Shown: piece by piece, positions 24,449 to 53,800 of the stretch
Numbering within the stretch: position 1 is the stretch's first letter
Layout: the number at the start of each line of letters is the position of its first letter
Origin: Cavenderia fasciculata
Taxonomy: Eukaryota > Evosea > Eumycetozoa > Acytosteliales > Cavenderiaceae
Length of the DNA: 64,000 bases
Assembly: GCF_000203815.1 (NCBI RefSeq)
Contig: NW_004457735.1
Location: 124,001-188,000 of the forward strand
Reading direction: 5' to 3'
Translations under genes and position numbers: made by a program
Notes under the pieces: generated by a model
What the model was told of the DNA's origin: nothing
What the model saw: only the letters and a program-made list of their open reading frames with translations
Databases searched by the model: none

Positions 24449-27400
24449 TTATTCGAAAATCTTTTCAAAACTTAGAGGTGATCCAGAGATTGAAAAATAT
24501 TGACCATTTGTTGTTCCAGATCCAACATACAATTTACATTTAATATCAATATGTTTCCATGTATGACGATCCAAGTTATTGATTGTAAACTGTTGAGAAA
24601 AGGATGGTTGTAGTTGGGCTTCATGGAATACTGCTTGTTGATCAAATCCAATTCCGCTGACTTGAAATGGTGTGGTGCTCAACAGACCACTCAAAGCTCT
24701 TCTTTCATAGTCTGTTGGTGACAAACGACATTTGATGGTAAAGGTAATAGAACCATTTAATGATGTGACAATGGCATCCAGGTAGAATTGACTCGCCAGT
24801 AGATGGTTGGCAATATTAGACAATTCACCCAAATTTGTTATACCATAAAAATCACTTGCTTCCTTGACTATTTCTTCCGTTCTCCAGTTTTCTTCATATT
24901 CATAGCCATTTTTAAATCTAGGGTTGATACGGTAGGGTAGTGTTTTTGAATTTGTTTCTTTCAAGTGTGTGTTGAAACTCTTCCATTGTGTTTTGCTCTC
25001 TGTAAAGGCATCAACTGTTTTATCTCCAACTGTAATAATATCATTTTGTTTTTGGGTTTGCGTGTTATTCCATTTACCAGTTGTAATGGTGATGAATAGA
25101 TCGCATGGTCGTTGAAAGAGACGATCGGCCTCGTGGAGGGCAATATGACATGGAGAAAGTGCAAGACTCGATCCATCAGTGTACGTGATGCCATTGATGG
25201 TGTGAGAATCGATAAATCCGGGAGTGGCAGATGTGGCAAGAGCAGCATTAAATATAGAGGTGTTTAAAACATCATATTTGAGACATGCCTTTCTAGGGAG
25301 ATGGTAAGAGCTAAACAGAGTGAGCTTGTTTGAACCATCAAAGTTGGTGGCCGCAGTAACTGCTACATGAGCAGAGCCTGGTGTAGAGGCTTGCACTTGA
25401 AGTAGGTATTTTTTGTTGTTTTCTGGTAGGTGTTTTGAGAGGACATTATTAAATGAATCACGTTTATAGATAGCTCTACAAATAAACTTTGTGACATTCT
25501 TGACAATTGGAACACCACCAAACGGATATATCTGGACTTTGTTCAAATCATTATAGAATTCAATCATTCTCGATGATTTGCCATCGCTACCTGATATTCC
25601 GAGGGCAACCAGACCTCCCGAACCACTACCAACAATAAGATCCACTAATCTACTGATTGGAATGTCGTACAGTAAATGCTCCAGGTGGTTTATGGCTATT
25701 GCTTGGGCAATTCCTCTTACTCCACCAATTCCTTCAATCGAGAGAACTCGGGTGTTTGCATATTTTGGTACCTGAGAATTGATCCATGGCGAGTCAGTGT
25801 CGCAAATCGGACATTTGATGGGGCTTTCCTCGCAGCAATCAGAACAAAACATATGGCCACACTTTCTTGGTTGAGTTGGATGGGCTAAAAGACAACCAAA
25901 ACAGACATTATTGGATGGGGCCAAATCTTTGTTGAGGAGGAGCGGTCGTCTGTTTTGAGTGACCTGGTTGTCATCTAAAAGATATGTTGGTAGATTGTCG
26001 CTAGCGTATGCTGCCAGTGTTTTATAGTCTCCAAAAGGAACATGGCCAGAGCTATACCACTTTTCGTTTGTAAAAGAGATTGTCTCTCCAAGGTTGAACA
26101 TGAGGAATCTTCGTTGCTTCTTTACAGTTTGAGTCGATTTGTGGTTGATCTCTTGGGTATGACACGATCTCACAGTTTCACATCTGAGATCTGAAATTTT
26201 TGGATGTACAGAGTCGCAAGGCATTGAGTCCATGATTTTATCATAGGCCTCTTGGAAAACCTTGTTGAGAGACTCTGGTAGTGTTTGACCTCTGACGGGG
26301 GAGAGAATTTGATTTCTCTTGCAATACAAGTATATAATGTCTCCTGTTCTTTCTTGAATGGCTTTATAGGCATTGTCAAAGGCTGAAACTGGTGTCATCT
26401 TTTTACAAATGTTTTGATTGTAGATGCATTTAAAAAATTCGTAAATAAAAGATGTCACTCCCTCCATGGATTTGGTCATATGGTAAATATCAATGGTTCC
26501 GAGTGCCTTTACATTGAGAATGTTGATGGCCTTTGACATGTAGCCCATCATATGGGATCTGTTATAGAGGGTTTTGTTGGTTTTGACAAGACAAGCTGAT
26601 TCGAGCAGTCTATGGACTAGATACTTAAACTTGATCATTTGCTTTGAGAATTGGTCAAGGTCCTGAAACTGAACAACGTCGGTACCTGGATGGAAAGACT
26701 TGCCGGGAGGGATGAATATGGCATTGAGTGTCTTATAGTGTCCTCTGAGTTCGACGAGTTCCTTGTTGTCAGAGTCTGGTGGGAAGATCTTGTTGGAGGC
26801 CTCTGTAACGTCATAGCTTGTGATGTTTGTTGCCTTGTTGTATACAACAATCAAATGAGGTTTGGTAGGTTGATTGATAGTGGAAACTGAGCTATCCTCG
26901 GCATACGATAAGAGATGTGATATGACATCTACAGAATTCTGAGCAGATTGGTTGTAGACATAGATAAAGACATCACTAAAGAGGTAGAGTAGACGTGGAT
27001 AACAGGTATCGATAAATCGACGACGATAACTTAGTTGATCAGGATCGATACACGACTGTGTATGTTTGATTGTTTGGTTGATAACTTCGGCTCCTTTACC
27101 CTCACTATCAAAGATGAGGAATTTGGAATTGTCCTTGGGCAATCTACCATTGTAGCAGTTAATGTCAGAGCTGGCAGCATCTGTCTGACTGTTTGACGAC
27201 ACTGGGATATGTTCTCCCTCGGCCAAGTAACGGACCAGCATACTTTTTCCTGCGCCAGTGGGTCCAGCAAAACTAGCAAGCAAGAAGGGGTCAGTCTCGG
27301 ACAGACCAGTGTTGATCCATTTGAGACCCTTTTCCATCACCTGAGAGTGAGGACTGACAAAGAGGAGGTTGTTGCTCTTCCAATCTGTTAAAAACTCTGT

Positions 27401-27640
27401 TTGTTTGTCTGTTGTCGGTTTTGGTTGTTCATGATCAAGAGCCTTGGCTGATTCATTGAAATTTTCTATTATGATTCTAGCATGGCCTTCCAAACCTTCG
27501 ATACTATGAACGAAATCACAATGATCATTGCAATAGAATGCTTGGCACGTGTCACAAAAAAACTCTACCTTGTGGGTACAACTAAACTTTAGTTCTTGTT
27601 GCTGGGCATCATGATCATTAGGATCTGATAGAGCAAACAT
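24449..27640 (-). CDS. B-box / P-loop GTPase / RING / patatin-like protein (paralogue 1)
   Basis: Single exon. The frame is open to 27658 without an ATG; the first ATG (27638..27640) gives 1063 residues, but a Zn-ligand-like Cys just before it hints at a missing short 5' exon. Domains in order: B-box-type zinc finger (CTHKVEFFCDTCQAFYCNDH, about 21-40); GTPase with Walker A GPTGAGKS (about 126-133), DSEG (about 178-181) and VVYNKAT as likely G4, reminiscent of GBP/atlastin-type GTPases; RING finger (C..C...C.H..C..C...C..C, about 580-613); patatin fold with oxyanion loop GIGGVRG (about 637-643), the elbow GSGSGG (about 671-676) where active patatins have GTSTGG, an ATSATPGF block, and DGS (about 822) for the usual DGG/DGA. 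The nucleophile Ser is therefore Gly. It is head-to-head with its paralogue at 28124. Role unknown; see findings. Confidence 0.85.
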   Translation of the reverse strand: MFALSDPNDHDAQQQELKFSCTHKVEFFCDTCQAFYCNDHCDFVHSIEGLEGHARIIIENFNESAKALDHEQPKPTTDKQTEFLTDWKSNNLLFVSPHSQVMEKGLKWINTGLSETDPFLLASFAGPTGAGKSMLVRYLAEGEHIPVSSNSQTDAASSDINCYNGRLPKDNSKFLIFDSEGKGAEVINQTIKHTQSCIDPDQLSYRRRFIDTCYPRLLYLFSDVFIYVYNQSAQNSVDVISHLLSYAEDSSVSTINQPTKPHLIVVYNKATNITSYDVTEASNKIFPPDSDNKELVELRGHYKTLNAIFIPPGKSFHPGTDVVQFQDLDQFSKQMIKFKYLVHRLLESACLVKTNKTLYNRSHMMGYMSKAINILNVKALGTIDIYHMTKSMEGVTSFIYEFFKCIYNQNICKKMTPVSAFDNAYKAIQERTGDIIYLYCKRNQILSPVRGQTLPESLNKVFQEAYDKIMDSMPCDSVHPKISDLRCETVRSCHTQEINHKSTQTVKKQRRFLMFNLGETISFTNEKWYSSGHVPFGDYKTLAAYASDNLPTYLLDDNQVTQNRRPLLLNKDLAPSNNVCFGCLLAHPTQPRKCGHMFCSDCCEESPIKCPICDTDSPWINSQVPKYANTRVLSIEGIGGVRGIAQAIAINHLEHLLYDIPISRLVDLIVGSGSGGLVALGISGSDGKSSRMIEFYNDLNKVQIYPFGGVPIVKNVTKFICRAIYKRDSFNNVLSKHLPENNKKYLLQVQASTPGSAHVAVTAATNFDGSNKLTLFSSYHLPRKACLKYDVLNTSIFNAALATSATPGFIDSHTINGITYTDGSSLALSPCHIALHEADRLFQRPCDLFITITTGKWNNTQTQKQNDIITVGDKTVDAFTESKTQWKSFNTHLKETNSKTLPYRINPRFKNGYEYEENWRTEEIVKEASDFYGITNLGELSNIANHLLASQFYLDAIVTSLNGSITFTIKCRLSPTDYERRALSGLLSTTPFQVSGIGFDQQAVFHEAQLQPSFSQQFTINNLDRHTWKHIDIKCKLYVGSGTTNGQYFSISGSPLSFEKIFE

Positions 27641-28123
27641 ACACCTTTTATATGTCACTTTTTTTTTAAAAAAAAAAATATTAATATTAAAAACTCTATT
27701 TCGCTTTGTCCTAATTTATTTTTGTTTCTTTTTCATACTTTTTAATAATTGTAGAGATAATAGTTTTAGAGATTGATTGATATAATAAAAATATTCTTGT
27801 GGATTTAGTATACATATGTACAAAACAAAGTACAGCCAACAACTCAACTTAAATTTTTGATTATAGCGTGGGTGATCAACTATTGCGCAAGGGGTATCAT
27901 CTCTCACTCATTGCAATCAACCACCGACAAGATTTCTCTCATTGATCCAAGGTTAACCAGAACACACAAATGGTGGGGGAAGGGGAGGTGTTGTTTCAAC
28001 TACAATTTTAAAATAAATATGCTGAAAGTTGATGATGATGATGATGATGTGCAATAATGATTAACATTACATCTATAATTTTTTTTACTATACCATAGTT
28101 TATCTTTGTAGGAGAATCAGAAT
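27641..28123. promoter_or_regulatory. Shared upstream region of the two B-box/GTPase/RING/patatin genes
   Basis: About 480 bp between the two divergent start codons. A/T tracts flank both genes and a GAT microsatellite lies at 28032-28050. Somewhat higher GC lies at 27865-27990. No named element is seen, but the geometry suggests joint regulation. Confidence 0.4.
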
Positions 28124-31100
28124 ATGGATCATCCAACCAACATCGATGAAAATAACGAGGCCATGTTGGCATCCTCACTAGAAAATGTCAATTTCGATGC
28201 AACTAAAAATAATGTTAATAACACGAAAAATAATAATAATGGTAGCGATAATAATAATGAACTAGTAATACCAAGATGTACAGCAAAGAATTGTAATGAA
28301 AAGATAACAGTATATTGTGAACAATGTAAAAGTTACTATTGTAACAAACACAATGCTAATCATTTGTATGTATTGGCAATGCGATCACACAACAGAGTAG
28401 ACGCAACTGAAATCGTAAAGTTTATCTCCAAGTTGAAATGCAACGATCACTCTAAAGACGTACAGATCGATCACACGAGTAAATACATCTATGTCTGTCC
28501 AATTACTCTTCAATTAAAGTGGGGACCAAAGCTATGTGACGTGGCTAAACACTCTGATAAGCCATATCTTCAAGTTAGCTTTATTGGCCCTTGTGGCTGT
28601 GGAAAGGTATATATGCACACACTCACACACATATATATATATTTATTTATATATAAATACGGATGTGTCTTGTATTTGAATGTAATAATACTAATATATA
28701 TGTTTTGTTTGTCTCCCAGAGTACAATGATTAGATTATTGGCAGATGATGATGATGGTGTATTGCCTATACCCGCTATCCAAGGAACTTTAGTTTCGACA
28801 TCATCAGACATTAATGCCTATCATTCAAGAATAGATGATGAAAAGGATGCATTTATCTATGTGGATTGTGAAGGTACCGGAGGTGCAATGTCTAATCAAA
28901 TGTTGTTAAACTCTATTGACCAATATAGTCAAAACATAGTTCAAGGAGATGATGGCAACCTGATCCCATCAGGAATGACAGAACAAGAGAAACAAAGTTT
29001 CTTTAGTGCTCGAACCCCATTTGTATCATACTCATTTCCTCGACTGTTGTATCTCTTTTCTGATGTATTGGTGTTTATGTTTGCTGGGGAGCCAAGGGAA
29101 CGAGATACCGTCCTCAAGCAGCTCATCCTCTATGGATCATCTGCGTCTGCAGGCACTGTCAACCATATGTTTCGTCCACATTTGGTGATTGTGTTTAATC
29201 ATTCTAAAACCCACGATGGCAACGACTTTGACGTTGACAAGGTCACTAAAAACTACTTGGAAAGTAATAGTGAACAAACCAACAAACTAAAGAGTCTCTA
29301 CCAATCGATCAGTATTATCCATATACCCACTGCCAATGGAACCACCATGATGAAATCAATCGAGCAAGTTGGAAAATTGGGTGAAATCATCAAGGAGAAA
29401 GTAAGGATAAACAGAGAATATAAGTTAAACAACCCAGAATTTACGCGTTCCAAGGTTTTGAGCTATTTCAACCGTGCCATGCAAGACTTCAACATGGACC
29501 AAAATGCAAAGGTTGACTTTTTCAAACTCATATCTATGGAAAGTGAAACCAACTCAAATGCTTCTTTTATTTTCAAATATGTCAATCTAATTGCCGATTC
29601 AAAGTTGCTAAATTCATCGGCTTTTGATCATTTATCTTTTTTTCTTGGTATGAATTCAAAAAAAAAGAAAATAATTCTAATTTATTTATTCTAATTTATT
29701 AATTTAGCAACAACAATGATACAAATTGGAATTATTGCTGCATATAAAAAACATTGTTTAAGACACGGGCTAATCGATCAAAAGATTGGTACACCAGATG
29801 CAAAATTTACAAATCAATTTGAAGATATTATTAAACAAGTTGATCATTCAATGGTTGAATACATGCCATGCAATTCGCAGCATTACAGTGAACACTTGAA
29901 AAAGAAAGTATTTTGTGAAGTTAGAAAAAAGAATCATCTAGATAGCGACCACGAATGCACCGAGGTTGCAAAGTTGGAGCTTACCAAGGAACAAGCGTCC
30001 AAACTCAAAAGTATGGGACTTCAAGACGGCCAACCCATCAAAATCAAATGGGAAGGTCGATTTGAACAAGACCCCCTATACAAACCTCTGCTTGAAACTG
30101 CACAAGCAATTCTCCTATCGCCAAAAACCGAGAATTGGGAAAGCTCTCATATTTTAAAGGACATTCCATTCAAACTAGTTTGTAATGCCTGTCTTTTGGA
30201 ATTCCCCAGTGAAGTCAGATCAGGATGTGGACACTATGTGTGTCGTCTCTGTTGCCAAGAGTCACCCGATTACTGTCCCATCTGCAAGGAAAAGAGCCTG
30301 TGGAAAGACAAGACCATCCCCGACAACTCTGCCCTCCGCATTCTATGTCTAGAGCCTGGAAATCTTCTTAAATCAACCACTCAATGCACAATTATCAATG
30401 AAATTGAACAGAGTCTCTATTCGATTCCCATTGCCCAATTGTTTGATGTCATCTCTGGTATTGGGTGTGGTGCAGTCATTGGCCTGTCATTTCCATGTGG
30501 TAACAAAAAGGCGACAGAGGTAATCAAAATGATTGAAGAGTTTTCTGGCCAAAGCAAAGGGGTGCATAATCTGGTGCTCATGTTTCATCAAAGTTTGGGT
30601 AATCCATTTATCGATAACCTAGCCCTTAAATTGATTGAAAAGATTTCATCTGAACTGACCAAATTCATTCCCAATACACCCACGCATTCAACACCGATGG
30701 ACTGCAAAATACTTTGTTCATCGGTCGAATTCAATACCATCAATGCCGACTCTCCACAGGCTGCAAACTACAACGTTCCCTCCCAACACCTTCTTTCAAA
30801 AATCCTTCTTTGCGACTTGGTTACGTTTTTTTTACTCGAGACCGAGACTTGCAAAACAGAGCCTACCCACCACCCTATAGGTTTCACCATCAAAGAGTGT
30901 GACCGAAACTGGGGTATCTTTAGAGCAGGGAACAATCAACCAGAATATTTAAAACCAAAGAAAAAGGTTGACATTGTAGTATCACTTGGCAACGGATCGA
31001 TTACTTTTGAAAATACATCAAATCCTGTAGTTGAAGAATGGAACAAACACAAGAAAGACCTTTGTCCAGACTCAATCAAAACCATGGTAAGAATCGACTC

Positions 31101-31587
31101 GGTCCTACCACCCACCTCTTTTGGTTACGACACTAAAAAAGAAATTCAAACATCCATGTCCAATGAAACATTGGCCTATCTTGCAACCAATGAAAAAGCA
31201 AAGCAGGACCTAAAGCAAGTTGTAAACACACTATTGGCACAATTATTTTATGTTGAACAACAAACTAGAATGGCCAATAGTCAAACTATACGTGCATCCA
31301 TTCGTTCAAGACTTGCAGTTGCCCTTCCAAAGGAAATCATTGACCAAATTAAATCATCTCCATCTGATTGCTTCTCTATCGAATCACAACAAGGACTAAC
31401 AGAAGGCCAATACCAATTCCATATTAATGAAATCCAATATGAACCAACCCTCATCATTCCATTTACCATTGAAAATATCGAAAATTTTGTACATTCCTTC
31501 TCTATTTCAATTAAATGTAATCTAAAATGTAATAATCTTCAAGAACCTTCAAATCAATTAATTTCAAATTGTCCAATTAAATTTTAA
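28124..31587 (+). CDS. B-box / P-loop GTPase / RING / degenerate patatin-like protein (paralogue 2)
   Basis: Exons 28124..28606, 28720..29647 and 29708..31587 give 1096 residues. Same order as its divergent neighbour: N-rich leader; B-box (CNEKITVYCEQCKSYYCNKH); P-loop GPCGCGKST (about 155-163, split by intron 1 after Lys); DCEG (about 210-213); FPRLLYLFSDVLVFMF, shared almost word for word with paralogue 1; RING (CNACLLEFPSEVRSGCGHYV onward, about 629-663). The patatin region is more decayed: the oxyanion GGxRG is replaced by EPGNLLKS, the elbow reads GIGCGA with no Ser, and no DGG/DGA motif remains. The fold is still detectable (LFDVISGIGCGAVIGLSF). Paralogue 1 has no introns, so the pair differs in gene structure. 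Confidence 0.85.
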
Positions 31588-45159: not shown

Positions 45160-47744
45160 ATGATATCAAACGCACGTAAACTTTATATGCAACAATTAGC
45201 ACAAGAAAAGAAATCATCAGAAGGTGCCAATCCAACAACAGCTACCACCACATCGACCACTCCACCACAATTTATTTCATCCACTCCAACCGCTCTCACC
45301 CCAACCAACTCTAACCATGCTCTCGTAGCCAACGGTGCCTCTGCTCCCACCTCCAACATTGTCGACGATGTCGATCAATTGCAACAACAAAAGCTCAAAG
45401 ACGAAGAGGAGAAAAAGAAAAAGGAGGATTTGATCAACAAGCGTCAAGAAGATGAACGTCAACAAAAGCTCCGTGAAGCTCAAGACAAGAAACGTGAAGA
45501 CGAAGAAAGAAAAAAGGTATACGCCAATGAAGAACTCAACGAAGAGATTGAAATCCAAAGTTTGGAACAAATGGGTAAAAACACTGGTATCTCCCAAGAC
45601 ATGTTTACCTTTTTCCCAGCAGAAGTTTATGGTGCCTATGATAAATTACAAAGTTTTTCAAGAGAGTAAGAAATGGAAATAGAAAAAGAAAAAGAAATAT
45701 TAATCCTGGAAAATATTTATTAATTAATTTTAATTTCTATTTTAGTTTAAATACATCAATTTCACAACCAGAGATTGTATTTGTTGGACCAAGATCATCG
45801 GGAAAATCATCATTGATTGAATCGTTTATTGGTAGACCATTGAATATTGTTGCTGGACAATCGGGGGGAGCATGCAGCAAGAGAGCCGTGCACCTCCAAT
45901 TCATGAACAACCCAGAGGTTGAAGGCACCAAGATCACGATCAAGCGTGACTCGTTTATCAAAGAGTTTGACCACGACATTGTAGTGCCACTCGAACAACT
46001 CAACGACAACCTTGCCCGTCGCTCCAACCAATTCCACGAGGAGCCAATCTACATTATCTTTGAGAGCAAGAGTACTCTCAACTTGACGCTCATCGATACA
46101 CCGGGTCTCCTCTTTGACGGCCAACCCGAGCAATCCAAGATCGAAGCCATCGTCCAACAGGCCGTTCGTCCATCACACCGTCTCATCGTCGCTGTCGAGG
46201 CCTCTGGTGAGTGGGCCGAGATGACCATGTTGCCATTTGTTAAAAAGGTCGATCCCGAACTATCGCGTTCCACCTTTGTCTTTACCAAGTTTTTCAACAT
46301 GATTCAAGACTTTAACTCGACACGTGGCGTCAACCGTTTCTTGGCCGGCACCATCAACGAGATCAAGACCTTCTTTGTCACCCTCCCCAACCACAAGATC
46401 CGTGCCCGTTACTCTGAGCCAGCCGCCTTCCAAGAGAAATTGACCCAAGCTTTTAGACGTGACATGCACTCACTCGAACAATTCCAATACGACAAGAGAT
46501 ACGAACGTACCATTGGTGTCCACCCATTCCGTCGTTACATGCTCAACATTGTCTGGAAGAGCTATCAAGATGCCATCCCACGCATCCTCAAGCATCTCCG
46601 TTCACGTTGTCAAAACGCTCAGTTGACACTCAACGAGCTGCAAAAGCAGTCGCTCTCACTCGACTCGACCAAGTTGCGTGCTGTCGCCTCCAACTACACT
46701 GTCACCTTTCTCCAAATCGTCGAGAAGCTCCTCTCGGGTACATCCGAGGGCAACCCATCGGTCAACGGCCAGACCTTGGAAGAGGAAAAGTCTCAACAAG
46801 GAGACGGCGGCGACTGGGTCGACCTCTACAACCGTCCCATCAAGTTTGACCCCGAAGAGTGGGGCATCTCGTACTGGAACAGCAAGCTGTATGGTGGTCA
46901 GCAATTTGAGCGTTTGATGGGCGAGTTCAAGGCCGTCTGCGACAATACCAAGATCACCGAGGTTACACTCGACGACGTTGCCACTGCCTCTGGCATCAAC
47001 AAGCTCAACAATATTCCCAACTATGCCTGGGCTGCCTGCGACCTTGCCCAACAAAAGTCCCAAGACGCCTTGGTTCCATTGATTGAGCAGCTCTGTGAGC
47101 GTGCCATCTACATTATGAAGCGTTTGGCTGAAGTCACCGACAAGGTCGTTGACACGCGTAGAAAGAACCGTGGTGGTGCCAACCTCTCGGTCATTAGCCG
47201 TCAATCATCGTCGTCCAACTCGACGTTTGACCTCGAGAACATCGACCAATACCCATACTTTACTCACCACGTCCGTGACATCTTTTTCAAGTTTATTGAG
47301 CAGACTGCCAAGGTGTGCAAAGAAAAGTGTATGGATGAATTCTACTCGACCCGTACCATCTACTGGGAACTCACAGAGCATCCAGACCAAAACCTGCCAT
47401 TCCTCAAGGCCGACCACCAAGACACCAAGTCGACCGTCGAGCACTTGACCACCCAGTTGTTTGACACGATCCGTAAACGTATCACCAAAAATGTACTCCT
47501 CAAATTCTACAACTTCTTCCTCGTGCCAATGCAAACCGATTTGTGGACTGAAATCCAAGGAAAGATTACCTGTCTCTCTTCAGAATCACTCGAACAAATA
47601 TTTGAAGTCAATGCCACCAAGGAATTGCTCAAGGACGATGAAAAGAAACATCAAGGCATACTTGATAAATACTCTCAAAATGATGAGGCCTTTTTACGTG
47701 CTGCCTCGGCATTTTCACATCCTCTTTCAACTCCTTCACAATAA
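45160..47744 (+). CDS. Dynamin-like GTPase (DlpA/B/C type)
   Basis: Exons 45160..45665 and 45746..47744 (intron GTAAGA...TTTTAG) give 834 residues. Residues 1-165 form a Thr/Ala-rich leader and a Lys/Glu coiled coil. The dynamin-type GTPase domain follows: P-loop GPRSSGKS (about 183-190), switch SGGACSKRAVHLQF, DTPGLLFDGQPE (G3), and FVFTKFF as G4. The stalk region continues through TKLRAVASNYTVTFLQIVEK and RKRITKNVLLKFYNFFLVPM. There is no PH or Pro-rich domain. D. discoideum DlpA-C, relatives of plant chloroplast-division ARC5, act in cytokinesis. Codons across 45.9-47.5 kb are strikingly C/G-ending compared with neighbours, which suggests high expression. Confidence 0.85.
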
Positions 47745-51610: not shown

Positions 51611-53800
51611 TTAATTATCCATTCCTCCAGGTTCAATATTATTATTATTATTATTATTATTTTGTTCAATGTCATTATTTAGTTCAACCTCTTCCAACTC
51701 TTCAATATCAATGTCTGTACTTATAGCTTCCATTGGTGGACTACTCATAACTTGTAAATTATTATTATTATTACTTGGAACCATGGTTGCATTGGATAGG
51801 ATTGAAGGTGATGGAGGAGACTCTTTGGATGAACATGAACTGTTGTCATCATCTGATGCGTCGTTGGTTGCAGTGATGGTGGGTTGGGAGGTGGCTCGGC
51901 GGAAATTCATTTCTGATGGCTTGCGACTCATTTGTCCACGGGTATTACTAGATGAATTCCAAGAGGATGTGGCCAATGAAATGATATCTCTGAGATTAAA
52001 GAAACGATTGCAACATAGAGGTGAATTTAACCAAATGGTGGCGGTACGTTTGGTGATACCATAGATTAAAAATATTTGGATTGGTTGGAGAACTCTGATG
52101 GTGTTGGCAGCTGCATGTGGACCAAATGGGATGATACCAGATGGCGAACAGTGGTCTTCTCCATGGGCATAGACACATGTAACATATTCTTGCATCTTTT
52201 CAGATATGGTTTCATTACGCGATGTCGAATAGAAATTAAAGATAATTTCATAAAAGAATTCGACCATGAAAACCATCAACAAAATGAATGGTTTTAGATT
52301 AAAACGAATAAGACGGATTGACTTTGTTCTTCCATCGTCTGTACGAATAACCACTTTATAAACTTCTCTAAATATTAATCCAACAAATATCAATCCTGAA
52401 AATAATACAACACAATAGGGTACCCAAAAAGCACCTATTTGCCAGTCCTGGTCTCTTAGGAAACATTGTAGACTACCTCCTGAATATCCATATTGATTAT
52501 CTGATAATGGAACCAACGCCAATGTCAATGCTACTACAAATACAATTGGTGTATAAAATTTTTCATAAGATTCTGTTGTATTTACTAAAATTGAACAAGA
52601 AAGTAAGTATTAATATTAATTATTTTTTTGTTTGGTTTGGTTTACATACAATTTCTTAAAACCATCCATAAATCAAAAGCAGCGGTACCCCACCATAAAA
52701 TAATACCAAGACCACCAAATGTGAATAGGAAGCCTGTTGCAGGACATGCAGCATCCAAATGTTGACGTCTAAATCGAATACCACCATCACAGAGGAATTC
52801 AAATCCTTGGCTCAATAGAGCTAGATCTGTAAATGTCATCAACAATCCAAATATACACATGTATAGAATACAACGAGTATGACGGTCTTGGTGACGATCC
52901 AATATACCAAATGTAATAATCATAAACGAGCAACATATAAATCCAAATACACCAAAAGCGTTGGATATTTTAAAGATGGTGTTGAATTGGCTCTTGTCAA
53001 ACACTGGATATGGACATGGGAATACACATGCTGTTCCAGTAAGATATTTGAATCCATCTTCTTCATTGGTAGTCGATCTATTTTTATAGGTAAATGGAGC
53101 AGCACATGTAAAATCGTATGGAGCACATAAAGGACATCCAACAATGATAGAATCGGTTACTGCACATTGAATCGAGTAAATGTCTGGTCCACGGAATTTT
53201 GATAGATTAAATGAATTACTCGATACTGGAAACATGTCAACAAGGAATTTGGGAACGACATCTTCACATGTAATATTACTTTTGGCAGTCATTCTAGGAC
53301 AATCATTAAAAAATTGTATACAATCACTTCGACATGAGCTTTGAAAGAGTGCAATCTTTGTAATATTTCGACCTCCAAGTGGGATTGGATATGGTAGATC
53401 GACAGTTTGACAAGGTTGAAACAACATATTACAAACAACCTTTAAACTATGATCATTTGCACAACTGTCGCCCATAATTGTCATACTTGATAATACTTTT
53501 AACGCATTTTCTTCAAATTCTTCTTGTGTTTTGTTATATGGTATCCAAATTGAATCTAAAAAAATAGAGGTAGATGGAAAGAGTTGGTTAGGCAATGGAA
53601 CTCATTTGTTGATTTTTGCTTAGATTAAAATATTACATACTTGGATCTTTTAAATATTTTTTACATATTGTTCCAGTATATGATTGACATGTTGCAAATG
53701 GATCAACAATTGGGTATGTAGTATTAGTAGAGGATGATGATTGGCCTTGTACCAATTTCAATGTAATAAATAAAATAAATAATAAATAATAGAGTTTCAT
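51611..53800 (-). CDS. Frizzled/Smoothened-like receptor
   Basis: Exons 53641..53800, 52650..53555 and 51611..52584 give 679 residues. Signal peptide (MKLYYLLFILFITLKLVQGQ), then a Frizzled-type Cys-rich domain starting at CQSYTGTICKKYL and including CNMLFQPCQTVDLPYP, CRSDCIQFFNDCP and TCEDVVPKF. Seven membrane segments follow (from FKISNAFGVFGFICCSFMII to NTIRVLQPIQIFLIYGI), then a Ser/Asn-rich and acidic cytosolic tail of about 130 residues. This is the layout of the dictyostelid Fsl family, expanded relative to metazoan Frizzled. The KTxxxW motif of animal Frizzleds is not evident. The ligand is unknown. Confidence 0.88.

Follow-up and report, generated by a model that had tools for sequence, protein, structure and literature searches.

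A divergent gene pair in Cavenderia fasciculata joins a GTPase and a RING finger to a patatin-like region lacking the nucleophile serine

What is a patatin-like region doing at the end of a protein that also carries a B-box, a GTPase and a RING finger? The question is raised by two neighboring genes, here called A and B, which lie head to head in a 64-kb stretch of Cavenderia fasciculata DNA (the window: 64,000 nucleotides of contig NW_004457735.1, from a genome of 21 contigs totaling 31.0 Mb). A first-pass annotation had proposed that both encode a B-box, a P-loop GTPase, a RING finger and a patatin-like region in this order, and gene models and alignment bear this out for A and B alike. It had also pointed to the phospholipase effectors of bacterial defense, and that part is not supported for these two genes: the nucleophile serine of the GxSxG elbow is glycine in both. 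Judged by their motifs, A and B look like pseudo-phospholipases rather than lipases, and the record should say so. Their features, in window positions, are as follows.

24452-27640 (24449..27640 with the stop codon), minus strand: gene A, a single exon and open frame of 1063 amino acids, ATG at 27640
27482..27580, minus strand: B-box-like zinc finger of A, residues 21-53
26651..27328, minus strand: GTPase domain of A, residues 105-330, with P-loop GPTGAGKS (27242-27265), DSEG (27098-27109) and YNKAT (26828-26842)
26216..26650, minus strand: helical region of A, residues 331-475, a weak candidate for a middle domain of the GBP/atlastin kind
25802..25903, minus strand: C3HC4 RING of A, residues 580-613, all eight ligands present, weak in Pfam
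24791..25756, minus strand: patatin-fold region of A, a putative pseudo-enzyme, elbow GSGSG at 25616-25630 with Gly673 in the place of the serine
24452..24790, minus strand: C-terminal tail of A, which aligns with the tails of B and of three relatives, L011, L014 and L015
27641..28123: region between the two ATGs, 483 bp, GC 0.29
28124-31587, plus strand: gene B, three exons, 1096 amino acids
28124..28606, plus strand: exon 1 of B, with the B-box (28277-28390) and the P-loop (28586-28606) except its last residue, which lies in exon 2
28720..29647, plus strand: exon 2 of B, with, by alignment, the remaining GTPase (DCEG 28864-28875, FNHS 29194-29205) and some of the helical region
29708..31587, plus strand: exon 3 of B, with helical region, RING, degenerate patatin (~30328-31296) and C-terminal tail
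30181-30285, plus strand: C3HC4 RING of B, residues 629-663, eight zinc ligands in C3HC4 spacing

A patatin-like region without its nucleophile

By fold and by profile, the C-terminal region belongs with the patatins. A profile of three catalytic family members plus A, compared with solved structures, matched 9wn0 and 9wn1, chains labeled Patatin (1.6e-27), then 9kh7, a "CBASS cGAMP-activated phospholipase" (3.3e-26; CBASS, cyclic-oligonucleotide-based antiphage signaling system), CapV 8zr9 (5.5e-24), plant patatin (3.2e-16) and iPLA2beta (1.6e-13); the catalytic member L011 alone recovered the same kinds in the same order (2.8e-15, 3.6e-14 and 8.6e-12 for the first three). Bacterial patatins, CBASS CapV among them, are the closest solved structures to the patatin region of A; B scores 16.4 bits with Pfam Patatin, below the cut-off. 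Against 9wn1, the best solved chain, A aligns gap-free through the elbow, with GSGSG opposite GTSVG. In a 14-row patatin alignment the nucleophile column holds serine in 10 rows (three CapV-annotated proteins, four other patatins of the genome and three family members) and glycine in four, namely A, B and the relatives L012 and L016. The four other patatins were drawn from 13 further loci; three more have GxSxG and were too short, and six were missed by the motif filter. A keeps the catalytic Asp822 in a DGS motif within 25166-25180, and B, whose elbow reads GIGCG (30457-30471), has neither this aspartate nor a Gly-rich loop. The aspartate motif is absent from L012 and L016 as well; for two of the four other genome patatins, which have partial frames, the column is likewise blank. 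With the change from serine to glycine, an active canonical lipase is rejected for either gene; B also lacks the aspartate. With tblastn, the patatin region of the catalytic member L015 matched 39 plasmid records, and 10 of the 12 listed are annotated as CBASS cGAMP-activated phospholipase; among three records examined, a DncV-like gene adjoins the patatin in one and none occurs in the stretch examined of the other two. These matches indicate similarity, not descent from CBASS, and the comparison with CapV fits relatives of this pair rather than the two proteins themselves as enzymes.

The rest of the architecture is recognizable to differing degrees. Against a cut-off of 27 bits, the N-terminal finger of A scores 19.3 (ANCHR-like_BBOX) and that of B 23.1; in a scan of 10 N-terminal segments a B-box family appeared at E <=0.1 in six, and one (L013, 34.4 bits) stood above its cut-off. 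Pfam searches of the segments, which the first-pass annotation had proposed, gave weak or below-cut-off matches for the B-box-like fingers of A and B, the RING of A and the patatin of B, and for A no GBP match up to E 5. The same annotation had drawn a comparison with GBP-type GTPases, which holds in part. Fold comparison places the GTPase of A nearest GBP, atlastin and RNF112, with GBP1 first and atlastin next, and in the helical region the fold-match ranges extend to residue 474, with root-mean-square deviations of up to ~25. The sequence profile, given below, does not favor GBPs; neither A nor B is among the 15 exon-level matches to PF02263, the GBP N-terminal domain, found in the genome up to E 0.01; and at the G4 place both have an asparagine-type N-K/H motif, where GBPs have R-D.

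The alignment of A with B takes in almost all of both proteins at 23.6% identity (E 4.8e-66), which makes them old paralogs; at 24% identity, a recent tandem duplicate is rejected. The open frame of A would arise by chance with a probability of ~10^-30.6, and exon 2 of B is bordered by GT..AG. Asn and Gln tracts occur in the window, whose introns are short and AT-rich, features in keeping with a dictyostelid.

Motif states and linkage in the paralog family

A and B have numerous relatives within their own genome. Searches of the genome and frame maps gave about 21 related gene models, built without transcripts; the counts are lower bounds. Seven of them are alignable from the GTPase all the way through the patatin; the others are L013, a single B-box GTPase, a set of four short GTPases, and another eight GTPase genes. 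The RING pattern is present in five of the seven long genes (A, B, L011, L012, L014), whereas the final pair of ligands is missing from L015 and the spacing differs in L016; it also occurs in three of the eight further GTPase genes (L019, L020, L022), and the stretches read of these eight gave no match to patatin. The long genes show two opposite states. A, B, L012 and L016 all keep the GTPase DxEG motif (4/4) and none has the patatin serine (0/4), whereas L011, L014 and L015 all have the serine, the aspartate and the Gly-rich loop (3/3) and none has the glycine of DxEG (DTET, DSEN and DSEP); L014 has also lost the P-loop. Such a division of motif states between paralogs is suggestive, not proven, and seven of seven does not mean seven events. 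Relatives were found neither among viral contigs nor among prokaryote genomes, both weak negatives from automatically chosen, family-specific peptide patterns (the plasmid tblastn search did match patatins).

Elsewhere in the genome, members of different kinds lie close together (C10 and C21 are contigs).

C10:276978-280334: L011, catalytic
C10:294367-299676: L012, serine-less
C21:2370643-2373810: L015, catalytic
C21:2377458-2382800: L016, serine-less
C10:539173-542532: L014, catalytic
C10:528801-532546: L013, cut at the RING

The distances are 14 kb (L011 to L012), 4 kb (L015 to L016) and 7 kb (L014 to L013). L012 and L016 are 56% identical, and L011 and L015 42%, so that the linked blocks probably represent copies of each other. 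L012 (2368-7677), L013 (2302-6047) and L016 (1959-7301) each appear to hold three successive B-box-GTPase units, the first two degenerate and the last motif-intact, provided that the frames belong to one gene in each case, as they apparently do. A short GTPase gene adjoins each catalytic gene; at L014 and L015 the two stand head to head, and at L011 they are in tandem. The short GTPases (L015:1009-2625, L027:3418-5061, L013:6171-7844 and L025:671-2386) have the P-loop GD[ST]GxGKST and lie near patatin and tripled genes; three of the four end in a GGLSD stretch, which was not seen in the one at L015. The L013-L014 cluster further contains a GBP gene (L027:1825-3275, C10:535324-536774; Pfam GBP 7.9e-22 and 8.9e-7, in two frames), which the 15 exon-level matches rule out as the sole GBP of the genome. 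The patatin-like region of L016 (L016:3669-7301) continues into FNIP repeats (Pfam 1.2e-50).

At the A/B locus itself, the divergent order is on its own weak evidence of co-expression, because random orientation would put one quarter of neighbor pairs in this arrangement. The shared upstream region has a GC-richer patch at ~27851-28000 (0.40-0.47 in 60-base windows); it has one 10-mer with at least three G/C in common with the divergent pair at L015, and none with the pair at L014. Other frames of the window, judged by eye, include a dynamin-like GTPase gene unrelated to A and B (45645-47744; VGPRSSGKSSLIESFIG ... DTPGLL) and two frames resembling a frizzled/smoothened-type receptor (51611-53601).

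What the pair might do

On the observed architecture, motif states, fold affinities, gene family and linkage of paralog kinds, our tentative proposal is that A and B serve as RING scaffolds driven by GTP and carrying a pseudo-phospholipase module, in a family that divides GTPase and lipase functions between paralogs. The two are divergent paralogs of a family in which a RING-bearing linker connects a patatin with a GTPase that is GBP/atlastin-like by fold. GTP binding would allow the GTPase domains to dimerize or oligomerize on a target that may be a membrane; partners or ubiquitin would be recruited by the B-box and RING; and the pseudo-patatin would offer a face for docking or for binding lipids, and might assemble with catalytic paralogs and so switch them on. 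GTP hydrolysis, oligomerization, E3 activity, co-assembly and an anti-microbial purpose are steps that we infer for A and B.

Several observations weigh against this scaffold proposal. The opposite states of serine and DxEG may represent one phylogenetic split, because the catalytic trio (L011, L014, L015) forms one side of a branch, with support of 100/99 in the long tree and 92/87 in the GTPase tree (all 21 cut segments, five of which begin at GKS; one L019 gene, L020 and L022, whose frames begin after the P-loop, fell outside the cut). In the long tree a branch (100/100) separates L012, L013 and L016 from A and B, which fall with the trio, and the serine-less genes therefore need not form one clade; in these unrooted trees the serine could have been lost once or more often, and A and B are sisters in the best tree with support of only 55/29. 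Both L011 and L015 retain the P-loop, so that "dead GTPase" is not established for them. For L012 and L016 a Pfam scan up to E 1 lists no patatin, and their patatin assignment rests on alignment to other members. L013 ends at a degenerate RING and has no patatin. The linkage of two kinds may only reflect block duplication, and no catalytic patatin is linked to A and B: apart from the pair itself, the nearest patatin listed on C3 is at 661010, ~0.5 Mb off. The GTPase sequence profile (built from 12 of the 21 cut segments) matched ABC-type P-loops (6.8e-5), SMG9 (4.9e-4) and septins (1.4e-3) among solved structures, and GBPs were not its best matches. The whole-protein model of A is poor (predicted local distance difference test score, pLDDT, 46), too poor to judge domain packing. 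Finally, E3 RINGs usually have a hydrophobic residue in the first CxxC, and the first CxxC of A (CFGC) and B (CNAC) is without one.

It is also conceivable, though we think it rather unlikely, that A and B act as RING E3 ligases under GTPase regulation, their patatin fold being a relic that persists only as a folding or dimerization block and has no lipase as partner. Both genes retain all eight RING ligands, and L019, L020 and L022 combine the family GTPase with a RING pattern and show no patatin match in the stretch read, so the GTPase-RING core can stand alone. Such a combination has a precedent in RNF112: according to PMC12012479, a single chain of this protein combines a GBP-like GTPase with an active RING, and neither of the two activities, E3 and GTPase, is related to the other. 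However, the patatin region and tail stay open for ~420-435 residues in both genes, and the first CxxC is atypical for E2 binding.

A lineage-specific family, expanded by duplication, whose ordinary task in growth or development concerns membranes or lipid droplets, would make the immune role illusory; this strikes us as unlikely. The clusters and their divergence would fit birth-and-death duplication, and atlastin, second to GBP1 in the fold matches, is described as a fusion protein of the endoplasmic reticulum membrane (PMC8565484 and PMC12012479). Yet the CBASS-like patatin, the GBP-like fold and the GBP gene in one cluster lean toward defense without showing it, and clusters of diverging paralogs are typical of defense genes. 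That A or B is still an enzyme through a shifted nucleophile (Ser674 in A, the cysteine of GIGCG in B) is highly improbable: A does have a serine on either side of the lost position and keeps the aspartate of its DG motif, and B has cysteine at +1, but the gap-free alignment of A with a solved patatin through the elbow implies that a neighboring side chain should point elsewhere, and B has neither the aspartate nor the Gly-rich loop.

Returning to the scaffold proposal, we speculate, as something of a long shot, that the family might be a eukaryotic, GTP-gated counterpart of CapV, in which microbe-sensing GBP-like GTPases assemble and activate a CapV-like phospholipase. The sensor would be the partner with intact GTPase and dead lipase, the effector the one with intact lipase and altered GTPase; the two halves would be split between linked paralogs, with A and B as sensors no longer tied to an effector at their own locus. 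If true, an immune GBP-fold GTPase would meet an anti-phage-like phospholipase in one amoeba protein family, its activities divided between paralogs that are close together at other loci, and two defense parts that have been studied separately would be linked. It would also make clear, opposite predictions for each paralog, because the genes that have lost the serine are not those that have lost the DxEG glycine. Should the anatomy alone stand, A and B would still go on record as pseudo-phospholipase-like.

Comparison with known systems

The GTPase fold of A resembles that of GBPs and atlastin, in the dynamin superfamily; A and B differ by not matching PF02263, by the N-K/H motif at G4, and by the added RING and patatin, and GBP membership is rejected. 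TRIM proteins, like A and B, have a RING and a B-box in one protein. In A and B, however, the B-box comes first and the RING follows more than 500 residues on (residues 21-53 and 580-613 in A), with no RING-B-box-coiled-coil block, and TRIM membership is rejected. RNF112 (neurolastin) is rejected too: its RING lies N-terminal to the GTPase and that of A and B C-terminal to it, and neither a B-box nor a patatin is described for it in the text available to us.

No paper with the full B-box/GTPase/RING/patatin order emerged from literature searches by domain words, in keeping with the first-pass statement that no named family is known to have it; nor did we meet a mention of activities divided between paralogs, although no search was worded for this. 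Fungal proteins annotated "FabD/lysophospholipase-like" have FCDxCW, a P-loop, DCEG, a RING and a patatin in the same order, together with YPRLLYxFSD, and keep GTPase and lipase motifs both intact in one protein; "new to science" is therefore too strong for the architecture. In an mBio paper (PMC6737239), the name FabD/lysophospholipase-like belongs to a patatin-TPR gene, not to the A/B architecture. For Dictyostelium, the sections at hand of two reviews (PMC8565484, PMC5758549) give D. discoideum a single GBP, against the 15 exon-level GBP-profile matches of this genome, and a single TRIM, with immune roles expected for both, and do not mention the A/B architecture.

CBASS CapV, among the best solved-structure sequence matches to the patatin region of A, is a stand-alone bacterial effector, whereas in A and B the patatin is a C-terminal module that lacks the catalytic serine, and a catalytically competent patatin is found in neither. 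No CD-NTase was recognized beside A and B by eye among window frames of at least 250 amino acids, no profile search having been made. The fungal patatin NLR PLP-1 differs from A and B in having NB-ARC and TPR with an N-terminal patatin and no GBP-like GTPase. It likewise combines a nucleotide-binding domain and a patatin in one self-interacting protein and, according to PMC12881547, couples the two in cell death.

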